A stretch of 33,546 nucleotides of DNA from the NCBI GenBank assembly GCA_030682795.1, contig JAUXNJ010000011.1, positions 1 through 33,546 on the forward strand, given 5' to 3'. This stretch comes from Sphingobacteriaceae bacterium (GTDB lineage Bacteria; Bacteroidota; Bacteroidia; UBA7662). The notes beneath the pieces are model-generated. The model was not told the DNA's origin. It did no database searches and saw only the letters and a list, made by a program, of their open reading frames with translations. Of this stretch, positions 13,926 to 33,263 are shown piece by piece (positions within the stretch are counted from its first letter, which is position 1; each line of letters begins with the position of its first letter). Made by a program: the position numbers and the translations under genes.

Positions 13926-15902
13926 ATGCAATTCGATCGTACGAATTACAGCGACGAGCAGCTGCGCTCGATGTACGCTGCCTTGGTGCTTCCGCGCCTG
14001 ATTGAGGAAAAAATGCTCATTTTACTGCGTCAGGGTAAGGTGAGCAAGTGGTTTTCGGGCATCGGCCAGGAGGCCATTGCTGTGGGAGCCACTTTGGCAC
14101 TGCATCCCGACGAATATGTGATGCCCTTGCACCGCAATTTGGGGGTGTTTACCACCCGGCAAATGCCGCTCAATACCCTCTTTGCACAATTGCAAGGCAA
14201 GGCGTCGGGCTTTAGTCAGGGCCGCGAACGGTCGTTTCACTTTGGCAGCAATGCGCACCACATTGTAGGCATGATTTCGCATTTAGGTCCACAAATGGCC
14301 ATTGCCGATGGCATTGCCTTGGCGCATAAGCTGGGGAATGAAGCCAAAATTTCGGTGGCCTTTAGTGGAGATGGGGGCAGCAGCGAAGGCGATTTCCACG
14401 AGGCATTGAATGTGGCGGCGGTGTGGGACTTGCCCGTGATTTTCATCATCGAAAACAACGGCTATGGCTTGAGTACGCCATCGCACGACCAGTTTCGTTG
14501 CAAGCAATTCATCGACAAAGGCATTGGCTACGGCATGGAAGCGGTGCAGGTAGATGGCAATAATTTGCTGGAGGTACATCGTACGGTGTCGGCTTTGGCC
14601 GAATCGATGCGTGCGAATCCCCGGCCGGTTTTGCTTGAATGTATGACTTTTCGCATGCGCGGGCACGAGGAAGCCTCAGGGGTGAAATATGTACCTACCG
14701 AATTGCTCGAGACCTGGGCGAAAAAAGATCCCGTAAAAAACTACGAGGAATTTTTGCAGCAGCAGGGCATTTTGAATGAGGAGCAAAAGACCGAAATCCG
14801 TCAAAAGCACCAGCAGGCCATTGACGTGGCCCTGCAAGAGGTTTTTGCGGAGCCGGAGATTGTGGCCGATTTGGCCAAAGAAATGGGCAGTGTGTATGCA
14901 CCTTATCAGCAGCAAGTGGTGGCAGCACCCGCGGGAGGGGTCGAAAAACGCTTGGTGGATGCCATCAGTGAAGGCTTGCACCAGGCCATGGAAAAGCATC
15001 CGAATTTGGTGTTGATGGGACAAGACATTGCCGAATACGGTGGGGTATTTAAAATCACCCAAGGTTTTGTGGAGGCATTTGGCAAAGCCAGGGTGCGCAA
15101 TACGCCTTTGTGCGAGTCGGCCATTGTGGGCGCCGCACTTGGTCTCTCCATAAAAGGCTACAAGGCCATGATGGAAATGCAGTTTGCCGATTTTGTAACG
15201 GTGGGCTTCAACCAAATTGTAAATAACCTTGCCAAAATCCATTACCGCTGGGGACAAAATGCCGACGTGGTGATTCGCATGCCTACAGGCGCTGGGGTAG
15301 GGGCTGGGCCTTTTCATTCGCAATCGAATGAGGCTTGGTTTTTTCATACGCCAGGACTTAAAATCGTATATCCCTCCAATCCCCACGACGCCAAAGGCTT
15401 GTTGCTGGCGGCTTTTGAGGACCCTAATCCATACCTCTTTTTTGAGCACAAAGCCATGTACCGAAGTGTAAGCGGATTGGTGCCCGAGGCCTATTATACG
15501 GTAGAAGTAGGCAAGGCATGCGTGGTGCAGGAAGGCAGTGATGCCACCATTGTGACCTACGGCATGGGGGTGCATTGGGCTTTAGAGGCGGCCAAAGAGC
15601 TGCCAGATGCTTCCATTGAGGTAATAGATTTAAGAACTTTGTTGCCTTGGGATGAGGCCACGGTATTGGCTTCGGTGCGCAAAACTGGCCGTGTGATGGT
15701 GGTGCATGAAGACACTTTGACGGGTGGAATTGGGGCCGAAATTGCTGCTGTAATAGCTGAAAAGGCGTTTCAGTCGCTCGATGCACCGGTGATGCGGCAC
15801 GGGTCGTTGGATAGTCCAGTACCCTTTGCCATCCCCCTCGAACAGCAGTTCCTTGGGGTGGACCGTTTTAAAATACAATTAAATCGACTCCTCAAGTTTT
15901 AA
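13926..15902 (+). CDS. Fused 2-oxoacid dehydrogenase E1 (alpha-beta)
   Basis: A 658-residue thiamine-diphosphate enzyme in which E1 alpha (residues 1 to about 330) and E1 beta (about 338-658) are joined in one chain. The alpha half has GIGQEAIAVG and the ThDP motif running from GDG (148-150) to NN (177-178), followed by YGLSTPS. The beta half has LMGQDIAEYGGVFKITQGF, the segment ESAIVGAALGLSIKGYK, and MPTGAGVGAGPFHSQSNEAW. The best fit is the branched-chain (2-oxoisovalerate) E1 that feeds branched acyl-CoA primers or leucine/valine breakdown, but a pyruvate E1 role cannot be ruled out. Such fusions are common in Bacteroidota. No E2 or E3 gene is present here. It ends the tatC operon; the next gene starts 48 bases later. 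Confidence 0.93.
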   Translation: MQFDRTNYSDEQLRSMYAALVLPRLIEEKMLILLRQGKVSKWFSGIGQEAIAVGATLALHPDEYVMPLHRNLGVFTTRQMPLNTLFAQLQGKASGFSQGRERSFHFGSNAHHIVGMISHLGPQMAIADGIALAHKLGNEAKISVAFSGDGGSSEGDFHEALNVAAVWDLPVIFIIENNGYGLSTPSHDQFRCKQFIDKGIGYGMEAVQVDGNNLLEVHRTVSALAESMRANPRPVLLECMTFRMRGHEEASGVKYVPTELLETWAKKDPVKNYEEFLQQQGILNEEQKTEIRQKHQQAIDVALQEVFAEPEIVADLAKEMGSVYAPYQQQVVAAPAGGVEKRLVDAISEGLHQAMEKHPNLVLMGQDIAEYGGVFKITQGFVEAFGKARVRNTPLCESAIVGAALGLSIKGYKAMMEMQFADFVTVGFNQIVNNLAKIHYRWGQNADVVIRMPTGAGVGAGPFHSQSNEAWFFHTPGLKIVYPSNPHDAKGLLLAAFEDPNPYLFFEHKAMYRSVSGLVPEAYYTVEVGKACVVQEGSDATIVTYGMGVHWALEAAKELPDASIEVIDLRTLLPWDEATVLASVRKTGRVMVVHEDTLTGGIGAEIAAVIAEKAFQSLDAPVMRHGSLDSPVPFAIPLEQQFLGVDRFKIQLNRLLKF

Positions 15903-27009: not shown

Positions 27010-28302
27010 ATGCAGGTAAAACATAATTTTGAAGGAAAGCGCATTTTAATGCTGGGTTGGGAGTTTCCGCCCGTACATGCTGGTGGCTTGGGCATAGCTT
27101 GTTATGGCTTGGCGAAGGCCACTCGTAATTTTATTGATGTGACCTTGGTATTGCCGAAATCGGACCCGCGCATGCAGCTCGATGGGGTTCAGATTTTTGG
27201 TTTAAATGAGTTGCCAGAATCGCTAACCATTACCGATCCTGAGTTGAACCGACTTAATGGCGGCATGCCTGAATTAGAATATTACCAATTGAGTGCGTCG
27301 GCTTGTGATTCGGTTCGCAAGGGGTATCAGTCGCAGTCGGGTTTGGGCCGCACCAGTTTCAAAGCGCTTTTCTCCGACCAGGAGGTGTACGGTCCCCAGT
27401 TATTGGCCAAAGTAAGCGCCTATGCCGAGGCTTTGGTGGAGGCATTTGGGGAAGGGGATTTTGATTTGATACATGCCCACGACTGGATGACCTATTTAGC
27501 TGGGGTGCGTCTAAAGAAAAAAACGGGGAAGCCCTTGTTGATTCACGTACATGCCCTGGAAACCGACCGTGCTGGTCGGGATGCACGCAATACCATGTAT
27601 TACATTGAGCGGTTTGGCATGCAGATGTGTGACCGGATTATAGCGGTGAGTGAGTATACCCGAAAAAACATTGTGGAGTTGTACAATGTGCTGCCAGAGA
27701 AGATTGAAGCCATTCACAACGGCATTGATCCGCAGCAAGTATTTAGGGCTGAGCACCATGTGCCAGAAAAAATAGTGGCTTTTGTAGGGCGATTAACCCA
27801 CCAAAAAGGGCCCTATCATTTGCTTGAGACTGCAGAAAAGGTCATTCGCCGCTTTCCCAATGTACGTTTTGTGGTAGCAGGCACCGGCGAAAAGATGAAG
27901 GAAATTATCGACTGGACTGCTTTTAAAGGCTTGAGCCGACATTTCTTATTTACTGGATTTGTGTCGCGTGAAAAGGTAGAGCAGTTGTTGGCGGTGGCCG
28001 ATGTGTATTTTATGCCTTCGGTTTCGGAGCCTTTTGGTTTGTCGGCCCTCGAGGCAGCGCAGTTCAATGTGCCCTGTGTAATTTCAAAACAGTCGGGCGT
28101 AGCAGAAATGTTACAGCACGCTTTGCAAGCCGATTATTGGGATACCGATACTTTTGCCGATCATATTGTAAAGTTGCTGGCAGATGAAAACTATCACCGC
28201 GAGGTGTTGGCGGCCATGCAAGGCGATTTACAGCATATTTCTTGGGATGATGCGGCTACCCGGGTAATTAAAGAGTACCGCAAATTTTTACTCAACGAAT
28301 AA
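27010..28302 (+). CDS. GT-B fold glycosyltransferase (GT4/GT5-like, glycogen synthase-like)
   Basis: A 430-residue cytoplasmic glycosyltransferase. The N-terminal Rossmann domain starts MLGWEFPPVHAGGLGIACYGLAKA, with the sugar-acceptor glycine loop GGLG at 25-28 (KxGGL-like, as in bacterial and starch synthases) and HAHDW at 155-159. The C-terminal nucleotide-sugar domain holds VGRLTHQKG (259-267) and the E-x7-E motif from Glu340 to Glu348 (EPFGLSALE). Such enzymes elongate glucans or glycosylate other acceptors with an activated sugar. The GH57 gene two bases downstream suggests alpha-glucan (glycogen-like) metabolism, which is an inference from context. Start: the ATG at 27010, with GGAAAG far inside the coding region and no strong ribosome site. 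Confidence 0.9.
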   Translation: MQVKHNFEGKRILMLGWEFPPVHAGGLGIACYGLAKATRNFIDVTLVLPKSDPRMQLDGVQIFGLNELPESLTITDPELNRLNGGMPELEYYQLSASACDSVRKGYQSQSGLGRTSFKALFSDQEVYGPQLLAKVSAYAEALVEAFGEGDFDLIHAHDWMTYLAGVRLKKKTGKPLLIHVHALETDRAGRDARNTMYYIERFGMQMCDRIIAVSEYTRKNIVELYNVLPEKIEAIHNGIDPQQVFRAEHHVPEKIVAFVGRLTHQKGPYHLLETAEKVIRRFPNVRFVVAGTGEKMKEIIDWTAFKGLSRHFLFTGFVSREKVEQLLAVADVYFMPSVSEPFGLSALEAAQFNVPCVISKQSGVAEMLQHALQADYWDTDTFADHIVKLLADENYHREVLAAMQGDLQHISWDDAATRVIKEYRKFLLNE

Positions 28303-28304
28303 CT

Positions 28305-29480
28305 ATGCCAGCGATTAGCCTCTATTTTCAAGTGCACCAACCTTACCGCGTAAAGCATTACGATTTTACAAGTATAGGGAGCGATCATCTGTATTTTGAT
28401 GAAGTGATGAACAAGGCCATCCTCGATCAAATGTGTGATAATTGCTATTTGCCTGCTAACGAGGTACTGTTAGAGGCCATTGAAAAGAACCATGGTGATT
28501 TTAAATTGGCTTTCTCGATCAGTGGCTCGGCTTTGGAGCAGTTGGAGGCGCATCGGCCGGATGTGCTGGAGAGTTTTTTGGAGTTGAACGCTACGGGTTG
28601 TGTGGAATGGATTGGGGAGACTTACTATCATTCTCTGGCCAGTCAGTATTCGCGTTCGGAATTTGCCCGGCAGGTAGAAATGCATGCCGAATTAGTTGCT
28701 GAGCTGTTTGGCAAGCGCCCCACTGTTTTCAGAAATACGGAATTGCTTTTTAGCAATGAATTGGTGAATGAGGTGGTGAAAATGGGCTTCCAAGGCATCT
28801 TGGTGCCGAGCACAGAGAAATTGCTGAAACAACGGAGTCCCAACCATGTGTACAAAACCCCCTTGTCGAACAAGCTTTTGTGCATCCCCAAAAACAGCAG
28901 TTTAACGGCCGAATGGAGTCGGCATTTTTACCATGCTGAGCCCGATAATGTGCTTACGGCGCTCAAATTCACGGGCATGTTGGACGAGCTCAAAGAGGAA
29001 GCGGATTGTGTGAATTTGTTTATGGATTATGGGGCTTTGTCGAAGCAAGCCGATGGGAGTAATGGCCTATTGAGTATGCTAGAGCGTTTTCCGAAACTGG
29101 CCTTGGCGCATGGGCATCCCTTTTATACGCCTAGTGAGTTACTTACCAAAGTAATGCCCACTGGTAAATACGATGTTCCTTATCCGATTACCTGGTCTTA
29201 CCCCGATTATAATTTGGGCTACCTTACGAGTAACGACATCCAGCAAGAAGCGATTAATAGGCTTTACGAATTGGAAATTGCGATTTTAGAGAAGGGGAAT
29301 GCAGATTTATTGGCCGATTGGGGCAGGTTACAGGCGAGCGATCACTTTTTTTACATGACCCATAAGTTTGAGGAGAAGAGTGAGTCAAATATTTACTCGC
29401 CTTATAAGACGGCTTATGAGGCTTACAATTATTTTTTAAATGTGTTAACCGATTTAGAGTTGCGGGTACGCAGGGATTAA
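28305..29480 (+). CDS. GH57 family protein (alpha-amylase-like), degenerate region 4
   Basis: A 391-residue cytoplasmic protein of glycoside hydrolase family 57. Four family regions are visible: FQVHQPYR with HQP at 11-13; GCVEWIGETYYHSLA near 98-112; VFRNTELLF with Glu146 at the nucleophile position; and NLFMDYGALSKQ with Asp241. In the Bacteroidota GH57 proteins I know, the last region usually reads FMDYETFGEH, so the Asp is kept but the following ETFGEH is replaced. Catalysis may therefore be altered or lost. The C-terminal DHFFYMTHKF and YSPYKTAYEAYNYF helices are typical. It pairs with the glycosyltransferase two bases upstream, suggesting intracellular alpha-glucan turnover. A bidirectional terminator follows. 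Confidence 0.88.
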   Translation: MPAISLYFQVHQPYRVKHYDFTSIGSDHLYFDEVMNKAILDQMCDNCYLPANEVLLEAIEKNHGDFKLAFSISGSALEQLEAHRPDVLESFLELNATGCVEWIGETYYHSLASQYSRSEFARQVEMHAELVAELFGKRPTVFRNTELLFSNELVNEVVKMGFQGILVPSTEKLLKQRSPNHVYKTPLSNKLLCIPKNSSLTAEWSRHFYHAEPDNVLTALKFTGMLDELKEEADCVNLFMDYGALSKQADGSNGLLSMLERFPKLALAHGHPFYTPSELLTKVMPTGKYDVPYPITWSYPDYNLGYLTSNDIQQEAINRLYELEIAILEKGNADLLADWGRLQASDHFFYMTHKFEEKSESNIYSPYKTAYEAYNYFLNVLTDLELRVRRD

Positions 29481-29550: not shown

Positions 29551-32500
29551 TTATTTGGTAACCACCAGTTGACGGGCAATTTGCTCGAAACCGTTGAACA
29601 TGCGCACATGGTAAATGCCTTCGGCCCAGCCTTGAACATTCAACTTAATGCTGCCATTGGTTACTGCTTTTTCGTTGATTTGTGTGATCATTTTGCCTCG
29701 GGCATCATAAACAGTTACGTTTAGGTCGCTTGGTGTTTGAAACTCATAAGCAATGTTGGTTTCTGCATTGCTCGGGTTCGGGTACATGCGGATGGCCTGG
29801 TTCAAGCTTCCCGCTTCAAATACACTAACGCCACAAGCTTCGCAACGACCGAAACATACGATGGGTATGGTGATTGTGCTGGTGTCTACCACAACAAAGC
29901 GGTTTCCGTTTTGTGCACAAGCAGCTGGTACCGATTCGTCGAAACCTGGTCCCCACTGATTGCCGTTGATGAATTTGTATTCATAGGTGGCATTGCGATC
30001 GAGCATGGCGGTGTAGGTGTAAATGCCATTGCCCTGACTAACCATTGGGGTTGTGTTGGGGCTCCAACCTTGGAAGCTGCCTGCGATGTGTACACCGTTA
30101 GCGGATACGGTTTCACGGCTCATGTCTACCCGGAAGGTCACCGACACTTTGGGTTGTGGCGTTACCACTGTACCGCCAAAGAAGACAGAATCGGCATAAA
30201 AAGTAGCACCAGTACCTGTGGTTCCAAATCCGTAGAAAATCGACAATACATTGTAGGTATTGGCAAAATTGATGGCTGCAGTACCTGTAGCTTGGTTGGC
30301 GAAATTAAACACCAAGGTTTGCCAGCCTGTGGTTGAAGTGGTGGCTTCGGTCTCAACTGAAATGGTAGGAACGCCCGCCTGTTCTGCTTTCAAACGAACA
30401 ATGACCCCGCTAGCTGGTGCATGCACACGCACTGAAAGGGTAGTGGCACCTGCTGCAAAAGGAATGGGCGTGCCTAAGCCTGATACTGGGGTAATGGTGG
30501 TTCCTGCCCACGTTTCAGCACCAGCAGTCTTGATAGACCGCAAGGTTGTGTTGGTAGCGTTTGTTGGGGAAGGAGCCAAGGCCGAAACATTGCCGCCGAA
30601 ATCGGTAAAACTATACGGAATAGCTGGATTATCCCAAGTGATAGGAAGGTTAACAGGTACGGGAGGTGGGCCAACCGGACCGCCACCGAAGAATACAGAA
30701 TCGGCGTAGAAAGTAGCCCCTGTACCTGCGCTGCCAAATCCGTAAAAAATGGAGAGCACATTGTAGGTATTCGTAATATTAAGGGCGGCCGTGCCTGCGG
30801 CAGGGTTGGCGAAGTTAAACACAAGTGTTTGCCAGCCAGCTCCTGTGGTGGTGGCATCGGTTTCAACAGAAATGGTTGGTACCCCGGCTTGCTCAGCTTT
30901 GAGACGAACCAGGATGCCGCTTGCAGGCGCATGCACCTTTACTGAAATGCTGGTAGCACTTGCAGTAAATGGGATGGGGGTAGAAAGACCTGTAGCTGGG
31001 GTGATGGTGGTACCCGCCCAAGTTTGCGCACCTGCCGTTTTAACCGAACGCAAGGTGGTGTTGGTGGTATCGGTTGGAGAAGGTGCCAGGGCCGAGGCAT
31101 TGCCGCCAAAATCGGTGAAGCTGTAGGTGATGGCTGCATTGTCCCAGGTGATAGGTAAATTAAACACAACGGGAGGTGGGCCAACGGGACCGCCGCCGAA
31201 GAATACAGAATCGGCGTAAAAAGTAGCTCCAGTACCTGCGCTGCCAAATCCGTAGAAAATGGAGAGCACGTTGTAGGTGCTTGCAAAATTGATAGCTGCT
31301 GTTCCAGTGGCTTGGTTAGCGAAGTTGAACTCGAGCAGCTGCCAGCCGGCCGCTGTAGTAGTGTCCTCGGTTTCAACTGAAACGCTTGCTACGCCTGCTT
31401 GCTCAGCTTTGAGGCGTACAATGATGCCGGCAGCAGGTGCATGCACCTTCACCGTAATTCGGGTTGCACCTGCAGCAAACGGAATCGGACTTCCGAGTCC
31501 TGTTCCTGGCGTGATGGTAGTGCCTGCCCAAGTTTGAGCTCCTGCTGTTTTAATTGACCGCAAGGTGGTATTGGTAGAATCGGTTGGGGATGGTGCCAGG
31601 GCCGATACATTACCGCCAAAATCGGTAAAGCTATAGGTAAGGGCGGTATTGTCCCAGGTAATGGGCAAGTTAATCGGTGGCGGTGGTGGTGCCAGTGGTG
31701 TGCCACCAAAAAACACCGAATCGGCAAAAAATATGGCTCCCGTTCCTGCATTGCCGAATCCGTAAAAAATCGACAACATATTGTAGGTGGTGGCGAAGTT
31801 GATAGCTGCTGTGCCTGTAGCTTGGTTGGCGAAATTAAAAACAAGCGTTTGCCAGCCTGCTGCTGTGGTATTGGTTTCAGTTTCTACAGAAAGGGTAGGG
31901 TTACCTGCGGTTTCAGCTTTCAAACGAATGGGAATGCCTGAAGCTGGTGCGTGTACCTTTACCGAAAGCGTGGTAGCGCCTGTAGCAAAGGGAATGGCAG
32001 TGGTAAGACCAGGAGGTGGGGTAAGGGTGGTGCCTGCCCAAGTTTGCGCGCCGGCGGTTTTGATGGTGCGCAGCGTAGTATTGGTAGAATCGGTTGGGGA
32101 AGGCGCTAAATTGGAAATATTGCCACCGAAATCGGTAAATACGTAGTTGATCGCTGGATTGTCCCAGGTGATAGGGAGGGCTGTTTGCGTAGGAGGAGGG
32201 AGCAGGTTCCATGTAGTTTGAACTATGATGCCATCAACTGTAATGTTTTGAGAGGCATTATACTGCCGCAATGCAATGTACTGCAAAGCGGCGGCATCGG
32301 CAGCGCTACCAGCTAATGGTCCAATAGCAGCGACGGCAGGTTCTGTAGCAATATTACTACCATCGGTAAATACATACAAGCTTACAGAATCGTTGTTGGC
32401 TCCAGGTACAAATTGGTATTTTACTACCACCAGATAGGTAACACCCGTATCGAGGTTGGTAGCTGTAGTGTTTGTGGTGGTTGCCAAATTGAATTCAAGC

Positions 32501-32967
32501 CCAAGTTTGTATTGTGCAGCGGTGGGGGCGGGTGCTATGAAGGTTCGAGCCCTGAAATTGCTACTGGTGAGAGTAAATACTGGGGTATCTACACTGGCAT
32601 AAGCACCTGAATGTAGAAAAAAGCCTGCATTGGTTGTGGTTACGGCTCCATTTACACGCATCAGGAACGACATATATACATTGCCGGAAGTAACGCTGCT
32701 GCTAAATGGGCGGTTCTCATCAGAACCAGTATTGTTCACGGCGGCTGCATTGCCGATGCCGCTGCCAAGGTAAGGGGTAGTGGCCCAGCTCAATCCTCCA
32801 TTGCGTACACGAATGGGGTTGGTGGCGGGTGCGCTGTGTGAGAACCAGCCGTTGCTTTGCAACAAGGAGTCAGCTGGGTAGTTAAAATGCTCAGTGAGCA
32901 GGGTCGTTTGTCCGTAGCTGGTAAAGTAGCCCAGACAGAGTAAAACTAAGGTGTAAAATCTTTTCAT
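29551..32967 (-). CDS. T9SS surface protein with four tandem modules and a starch-binding-like domain
   Basis: A 1138-residue exported protein from the ATG at 32967. The signal peptide MKRFYTLVLLCLGYFTSYG is followed by an N-terminal concanavalin/LamG-like domain (about 22-255). Four near-identical 159-residue modules follow at 264-422, 434-592, 604-762 and 774-932, each running from LPITWDN to DSVFFGG and joined by 11-residue proline-rich linkers. Next is a domain (about 938-1045) beginning VSVTFRVDMSRETV with GSFQGWSPNTTPM and YEYKFING, resembling CBM20/CBM48 starch- or glycogen-binding folds. The last 85 residues are a T9SS sorting tail (IRMYPNPSNAETNIAYEF, then AEGIYHVRMF). No catalytic domain is recognised, so it is probably a glycan-binding surface protein. 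The frame is open to an ATG at 33000, but only the later ATG gives a proper signal peptide. Confidence 0.9.
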   Translation of the reverse strand: MKRFYTLVLLCLGYFTSYGQTTLLTEHFNYPADSLLQSNGWFSHSAPATNPIRVRNGGLSWATTPYLGSGIGNAAAVNNTGSDENRPFSSSVTSGNVYMSFLMRVNGAVTTTNAGFFLHSGAYASVDTPVFTLTSSNFRARTFIAPAPTAAQYKLGLEFNLATTTNTTATNLDTGVTYLVVVKYQFVPGANNDSVSLYVFTDGSNIATEPAVAAIGPLAGSAADAAALQYIALRQYNASQNITVDGIIVQTTWNLLPPPTQTALPITWDNPAINYVFTDFGGNISNLAPSPTDSTNTTLRTIKTAGAQTWAGTTLTPPPGLTTAIPFATGATTLSVKVHAPASGIPIRLKAETAGNPTLSVETETNTTAAGWQTLVFNFANQATGTAAINFATTYNMLSIFYGFGNAGTGAIFFADSVFFGGTPLAPPPPPINLPITWDNTALTYSFTDFGGNVSALAPSPTDSTNTTLRSIKTAGAQTWAGTTITPGTGLGSPIPFAAGATRITVKVHAPAAGIIVRLKAEQAGVASVSVETEDTTTAAGWQLLEFNFANQATGTAAINFASTYNVLSIFYGFGSAGTGATFYADSVFFGGGPVGPPPVVFNLPITWDNAAITYSFTDFGGNASALAPSPTDTTNTTLRSVKTAGAQTWAGTTITPATGLSTPIPFTASATSISVKVHAPASGILVRLKAEQAGVPTISVETDATTTGAGWQTLVFNFANPAAGTAALNITNTYNVLSIFYGFGSAGTGATFYADSVFFGGGPVGPPPVPVNLPITWDNPAIPYSFTDFGGNVSALAPSPTNATNTTLRSIKTAGAETWAGTTITPVSGLGTPIPFAAGATTLSVRVHAPASGVIVRLKAEQAGVPTISVETEATTSTTGWQTLVFNFANQATGTAAINFANTYNVLSIFYGFGTTGTGATFYADSVFFGGTVVTPQPKVSVTFRVDMSRETVSANGVHIAGSFQGWSPNTTPMVSQGNGIYTYTAMLDRNATYEYKFINGNQWGPGFDESVPAACAQNGNRFVVVDTSTITIPIVCFGRCEACGVSVFEAGSLNQAIRMYPNPSNAETNIAYEFQTPSDLNVTVYDARGKMITQINEKAVTNGSIKLNVQGWAEGIYHVRMFNGFEQIARQLVVTK
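30172..32178 (-). repeat. Four tandem coding repeats, exact 510-nt period
   Basis: Units of 477 nt at 31702-32178, 31192-31668, 30682-31158 and 30172-30648 (in reading order), each followed by a 33-nt linker except the last. Start-to-start distance is exactly 510 nt three times. Each unit encodes 159 residues from LPITWDN to DSVFFGG, with shared blocks such as FTDFGGN, APSPT, TAGAQTWAGTT and YGFG. The first unit is the most divergent; the other three are close to four-fifths identical in protein by eye. Confidence 0.95.
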
Positions 32968-33263
32968 GCGGGTGGTTTTAGTACATTTTACTATAAACAT
33001 AACGATAAAATCTTAAATGCCAAATTACCAGCCAAGATATTATGGAGATACCAGTTTGGTTTTGTTGGAGTTAAGCTGTTTTAAAGCATATTTAATTGGG
33101 GACATTTGCAGGTGATTTTGGTCTTTACATGGTCCTGAATTGCTCGAAAACAACAAAACCAGCACCAAGGCGCCAGTTTTGAAGTTGTGAATCACGCAAG
33201 ATTCATTAAGCTGTTTGGTTATTTTTTTAACTACAGCTGATGTATTTCAACGGTGCAAAAAAA
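32968..33263. other. Intergenic region, no gene recognised
   Basis: An AT-rich stretch of 296 bases between the start of the four-module surface protein and the end of the small PID-tail protein. It should hold the surface-protein promoter on the minus strand, but I found no convincing TTG-N(17-19)-TAnnTTTG match. CAAATTAC at 33020-33027 is only a partial -7 resemblance. No hairpin terminator is evident for the PID-tail gene. Confidence 0.5.

Follow-up and report, generated by a model that had tools for sequence, protein, structure and literature searches.

A GH57 protein with a degenerate conserved region 4 as a candidate partner subunit of the adjacent GT4 glycosyltransferase

We lean toward the view, suggested by comparison of its residues with those of its homologues, that a GH57 protein encoded immediately downstream of a GT4-type glycosyltransferase in a Sphingobacteriaceae bacterium is a partner subunit of that GT4, glucan-binding or regulatory in role, with its hydrolase activity lost or much reduced. 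The GH57 alpha-amylase-type barrel would have been kept as an obligate partner of an upstream GT4 alpha-glucan (glycogen-type) synthase. It may hydrolyze inefficiently or no longer, and would mainly hold the glucan chain or stabilize or regulate the GT4, in complex with it. The DNA analyzed (hereafter, the window) is a stretch of 33,546 nucleotides, contig 39 among the 47 contigs of a draft genome of 3.1 Mb.

Fold and conserved regions of the GH57 protein

The GT4 gene (27010..28302, + strand) encodes 430 aa with an intact EX7E motif (EPFGLSALE, residues 340–348), and the ATG start codon of the GH57 gene (28305..29480, + strand; 391 aa, an ORF without stops) lies 2 nt downstream of the GT4 stop codon. 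The Pfam model Glyco_hydro_57 (PF03065) covered residues 6–291 of the GH57 protein (E = 2e-51; 175.5 bits against a cut-off of 21.2), and no NCBIfam model matched it. When solved structures were searched with the single protein, chiefly chance matches to RNA helicases and a weak match to 1k1w were returned, so that a profile was needed; the profile search also drew one unrelated methyltransferase (3ilk). An AF2 model built from nine sequences (pLDDT 82.6, pTM 0.86) matched solved GH57 enzymes along the whole length of the protein, for example, Aquifex amylopullulanase (9ihu; Z 31.5, rmsd 3.2, 342 residues) and the T. litoralis 4-alpha-glucanotransferase (1k1x; Z 28.6). The (beta/alpha)7 barrel plus helical bundle of GH57 was recognized in the model and its structure matches. 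By profile and predicted fold, the protein should be placed in GH57; as a typical active enzyme of the family, it probably should not. Its nearest named relative (88% identical; L033) comes from a metagenome-assembled genome that carries the record label Chitinophaga pinensis.

The conserved regions, all on the + strand, were read directly in the ORF. Region 1 (QVHQP, residues 9–13; 28329..28343), region 2 (GETYYHS, residues 104–110; 28614..28634) and region 3 (RNTELLF, residues 143–149; 28731..28751), the last with Glu146 at the nucleophile position (28740–28742), are all kept, as the first-pass annotation of this DNA had reported. Region 5 (LQASDHFFY, residues 342–350; 29328..29354) is kept with Tyr349 replaced by Phe. 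In region 4 (FMDYGALSKQ, residues 239–248; 29019..29048), 6 of 10 positions are changed: Asp241 (29025–29027) and Tyr242 are retained, and each of the six conserved positions that follow (ETFGEH) is substituted, beginning with Glu243 to Gly (29031–29033). The profile alignment sets Glu146 against chain residue 123 of the T. litoralis enzyme (1k1w) and Asp241 against residue 214; the catalytic pair of that enzyme consists of Glu123 and Asp214, nucleophile and acid/base, according to PMC5347038. The GH57 protein accordingly has both the Glu nucleophile of region 3 and the Asp acid/base of region 4, and the set of five conserved regions is broken at region 4. The Glu243 position lies two residues beyond the acid/base in the sequence, and our literature search found no statement of a role for the corresponding Glu of the T. 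litoralis enzyme (Glu216, numbered from the profile alignment).

The homologues were compared as aligned rows. Out of 131 loci, 123 yielded a GH57 frame, and counts were made on 98 distinct rows, leaving out same-place repeats, two fragments and a fusion (L032, L041 and L072), window repeats and loci without the gene. A row was called canonical if it has E146, D241 and E243; these three positions are invariant by selection of the rows, and the rest are not. DYETFGEH was found in 29/29 canonical rows, which upholds the reading of the first-pass annotation that Asp241 remains and the conserved residues after it are gone. The alignment with Bacteroidota homologues beside the same GT4, which that annotation had proposed as a check, gave five DYG rows, from two genera, and no activity report was found in the open-access literature for any homologue with a GALSKQ-type segment. 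The damage is wider than had been stated, as two further segments are gone: SLTAEWSRHFY (28899..28931, + strand) stands where canonical homologues have (x)LSDDIAFRFS, and TWSYPDYNLGYL (29190..29225, + strand) stands where they have SWADxERDLxAW.

Of the 90 positions at which at least 95% of the 29 canonical rows agree, the GH57 protein differs at 33, compared with 0–10 of 90–94 such positions when canonical rows were left out one at a time. These changes are distributed unevenly (1/34 up to residue 165 and 32/56 beyond). The mean identity to the canonical rows is 0.39 for the GH57 protein, and the four canonical rows listed as most distant have 0.44–0.50, so that the canonical rows resemble one another more than they resemble the GH57 protein. 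Part of the gap is therefore plain divergence, but the one-sided pattern is not.

Association of the GH57 and GT4 genes

Among 21 genomes of the order, 7 carry GH57, one of them as a relic, and the six with a GT4 at E <= 1e-60 are those with a GH57 frame. Among 392 genomes of the phylum, GH57 was found in 13 and GT4 in 12, all of which lie within the 13; in 12/12 genomes the genes are direct neighbors on the same strand, and the thirteenth genome (G454) carries a GT4–GH57 fusion of 881 aa in a single ORF. In the family of G454 (f86), which is not that of the window, full fusions in one frame were found in 5/27 genomes (L072 / L132–L137; frames of 881–925 residues), with intact GH57 active-site motifs, and a sixth genome has the fusion in two pieces on two contigs. 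For 25/29 canonical GH57 rows, the DNA examined has a GT4 on the same strand. None was found in the DNA examined near the canonical rows L009, L010, L034 and L040, and the contig of L040 ends there. In a separate case (L031, G135), a heavily eroded GH57 has lost 55/90 invariant positions, and no GT4 was found in the DNA examined.

The GT4 itself is well preserved: 3/67 invariant positions are lost in the window GT4, and 3–4/67 are changed in the clades with eroded GH57, compared with 0–8 when canonical rows were left out one at a time. Its EX7E motif is that looked for in a glycogen-type synthase partner, and it matches glycogen-synthase-like as well as other GT4 models, all below their cut-offs; from this family resemblance, its substrate may be a glucan built from ADP- or UDP-glucose. 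We found neither GlgA nor GlgC above the curated cut-off in the genome, and a canonical glycogen pathway that would make the GT4 redundant was rejected on this basis. The genome also has a GH13 protein, by eye a branching enzyme. The sole other GH57 protein in the genome, considered as a possible intact copy, is an 816-aa GH57–DUF3536 protein of a different type. On contig 20 of genome G000 (L055:1895-7944), the neighbors of GH57–DUF3536 are a GH13-like amylase and a protein that resembles a branching enzyme and has a long Lys/Ala/Pro tail.

Origin of the DYG change and parallel erosion

The nearest relative, which is the other genome of the genus, has FMDYGVLSKQ at this place, and LDYG(V/A)VS occurs in three genomes of a sister genus, so that DYGx(L/V)S is common to 5/5 rows of two genera between which synonymous sites are saturated. 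In a tree of GT4 and GH57 computed without the trait columns, the next outgroup in the same family (L005), which has an intact DYETIGEH and the same GT4 partner, branches before both genera (SH-aLRT 97), as it does with GT4 alone (SH-aLRT 90); the tree analysis carried a long-branch warning for some outgroup rows. This branching order means that a single loss of Glu243 explains the five DYG rows. The outgroup protein is itself changed at 26/90 invariant positions, 22 of which are also altered in the window GH57 protein, but its DYE is intact; the C-terminal part was thus already being rewritten before Glu243 was lost, and the erosion came in steps.

The window GH57 protein, region 4 included, is under strong purifying selection. 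Against the other genome of the genus, pN was 0.075 and pS 0.80 (saturated) for the whole gene, and 0.109 and 0.706, respectively, for residues 236–262; omega between pairs of the three sister-genus genomes was 0.053–0.090. A fourth sister-genus genome (G004) retains only a frameshifted GH57 tail (about residues 264–390; L053:4214-4593), at the conserved location next to dcd, and has no GT4 at E <= 1e-60. Both genes are absent from nine genomes of a further genus and from an incomplete genome of the same genus. The GT4–GH57 pair is thus dispensable, but as a pair.

Erosion of GH57 has gone further in two other families, which are sisters in the tree of GT4 and GH57. In f34 (32 rows, among the matches listed for 114/121 genomes), the nucleophile Glu is absent from 32/32 rows read (Ser, Gly or Asn), and Asp241 is replaced by Glu in 26/32. 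In f58 (30 rows, among the matches listed for 72/78 genomes), Asp241 is replaced by Asn in 30/30 rows read. Almost all of these rows are the best-scoring ones against a mostly canonical profile and lean towards the less eroded; those of f58 exclude lower-scoring or second copies (e.g. G641, G654 with two stops, G684, G693, G695 and G701). All 62 rows have an upstream same-strand GT4 with both EX7E glutamates. GH57 is present in 86/87 near-complete genomes of f34 and 50/50 of f58, and the median omega of close pairs is 0.027 (11 pairs; highest, 0.24) and 0.042 (5 pairs; highest, 0.087), respectively. Examples of the two families are L029, L075–L102, L019 and L103–L131; in those of their rows that were inspected for it, a charged tail follows the GH57 domain, as it does in some canonical rows.

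Possible function of the GT4–GH57 pair

For a GH57 protein of the f34 type, which lacks the nucleophile yet hardly changes and stands beside an intact GT4, the best explanation is that it serves this GT4 as a subunit or helper. With moderate confidence, we place the window protein in the same role, as a less advanced case, because of its descent and its company. Several points can be set against this. Both catalytic residues are present, so that catalysis would still be possible by sequence; the partnership does not need the loss, since L005 with its intact DYETIGEH is paired with the same GT4, and the fusions of f86 likewise keep an intact GH57 active site. Moreover, 4/29 canonical rows without a nearby GT4 indicate that GH57 may exist without one, and linked genes may remain neighbors for no other reason than that they serve the same pathway.

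The first-pass annotation had allowed for either a changed specificity or a role as regulator or binding partner of the glycosyltransferase. The partner half gained support from co-occurrence, adjacency, fusion, joint loss and eroded homologues under selection. The changed-specificity half is compatible with the two remaining catalytic residues, and we regard it as the main rival, possible but less likely: the protein would still be an enzyme working with Glu146 and Asp241, and the rewritten region 4 and neighboring segments would change its specificity for acceptors or chain lengths, e.g. for branching or trimming the GT4 product or making primers for it. Such a re-tuned site fits the retention of the nucleophile and acid/base positions and of regions 1, 2, 3 and 5, as well as the persistence of DYGx(L/V)S in 5/5 rows despite synonymous saturation. 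However, the changes reach SDDIAFR and DxERDxxAW and take in 33/90 invariant positions, and in f34 and f58 catalytic residues are gone while the protein is conserved.

It is improbable that the window protein is instead a relic, i.e. that the pair is dispensable in the window's family and GH57 is decaying first. The frameshifted tail without a GT4 in G004 and the genomes that have neither gene would agree with decay, but strong purifying selection acts on GH57 in both genera that keep it, region 4 too, and the losses cluster in a single part of the protein. An artefact of sequencing, assembly or alignment might be suspected in a draft genome of 47 contigs; we give it almost no weight, as independent genomes read the same change and no frame break is needed.

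Returning to the partner-subunit reading, the closest known proteins are those of the GH57 alpha-amylase group (Methanocaldococcus jannaschii type). The window protein shares with them the fold, regions 1–3 and 5, the Arg that opens region 3 and the positions of the catalytic Glu and Asp, and the adjacent GT4 is also known from some archaea (PMC11046441). It differs in region 4, which is replaced after Asp-Tyr, and in region 5, which ends with one of two tyrosines; the comparison is with the group as described. According to PMC6037648, traits of this group are a region 5 ending in two tyrosines, Thr, Ser or Ala at logo position 23 and Arg or Glu at position 12; the window protein has Phe349-Tyr350, Ala244 and Arg143, respectively, the logo-to-residue assignment being ours. 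The same source, which surveyed 126 sequences, describes alpha-amylase-like proteins in which one catalytic residue, or both, is missing and which are very probably not typical enzymes. Like these, the window protein is closely related to the alpha-amylase group and has a damaged active site; unlike them, it keeps Glu146 and Asp241 and falls outside the definition by substitution, which the f34 and f58 proteins do fit. The kind is thus already known, with the window protein as a less complete variant of it.

Archaeal clusters in which a GT4 likewise stands next to a GH57 amylase are described for Picrophilus and Methanoculleus in PMC11046441, a 2024 review that considers GT4 enzymes beside GH57 genes as possible uncharacterized glycogen synthases, with such a synthase suggested for Methanoculleus; the available text of its account of these clusters makes no mention of eroded GH57 partners, fusions or Bacteroidota. 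It also reports that a GH57-amylase null mutant of Sulfolobus acidocaldarius contains much less glycogen. By analogy, this phenotype would point to an anabolic role for a GH57 protein in a glycogen pathway; the source explains it by missing branching, which is a catalytic role. In the open-access literature, we found neither the pairing of an eroded GH57 with GT4 in Bacteroidota nor the fusion or the selection result, and a search for 'GH57' with 'pseudoenzyme' returned no paper.

More tentatively, and with less confidence than we place in the partner-subunit reading for the window, the GT4–GH57 pair may in general be a two-subunit alpha-glucan synthase in which GH57 is ancestrally a non-catalytic glucan holder. 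On at least two independent occasions in Bacteroidota, in the window's family and in the clade of f34 and f58, hydrolytic catalysis might then have disappeared or weakened, because selection keeps the glucan-holding job. One lineage would have lost the nucleophile itself, the pair would be inseparable, and in another family it would have become one polypeptide. The GH57 alpha-amylase-like proteins have so far been catalogued without a function. The series found in nature, intact in L005, partly rewritten in the window protein and nucleophile-less in f34, always beside the same GT4, gives constructs with which GH57 acting by catalysis can be distinguished from GH57 acting as a subunit.

Two other genes of the window were noted. 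Convergent with the GT4–GH57 pair is a gene for a 1149-aa secreted protein (29551–33000, − strand) that carries a type IX secretion tail, a sub-threshold AMPK/CBM48-type glycogen-binding domain and four repeats that are nearly identical (CBM35-like match); part of this protein is also encoded near the pair in another genome (G001). At 13926–15902 (+ strand), the window encodes a 658-aa protein in which, by eye, the alpha and beta subunits of a 2-oxoacid dehydrogenase E1 seem to be fused.
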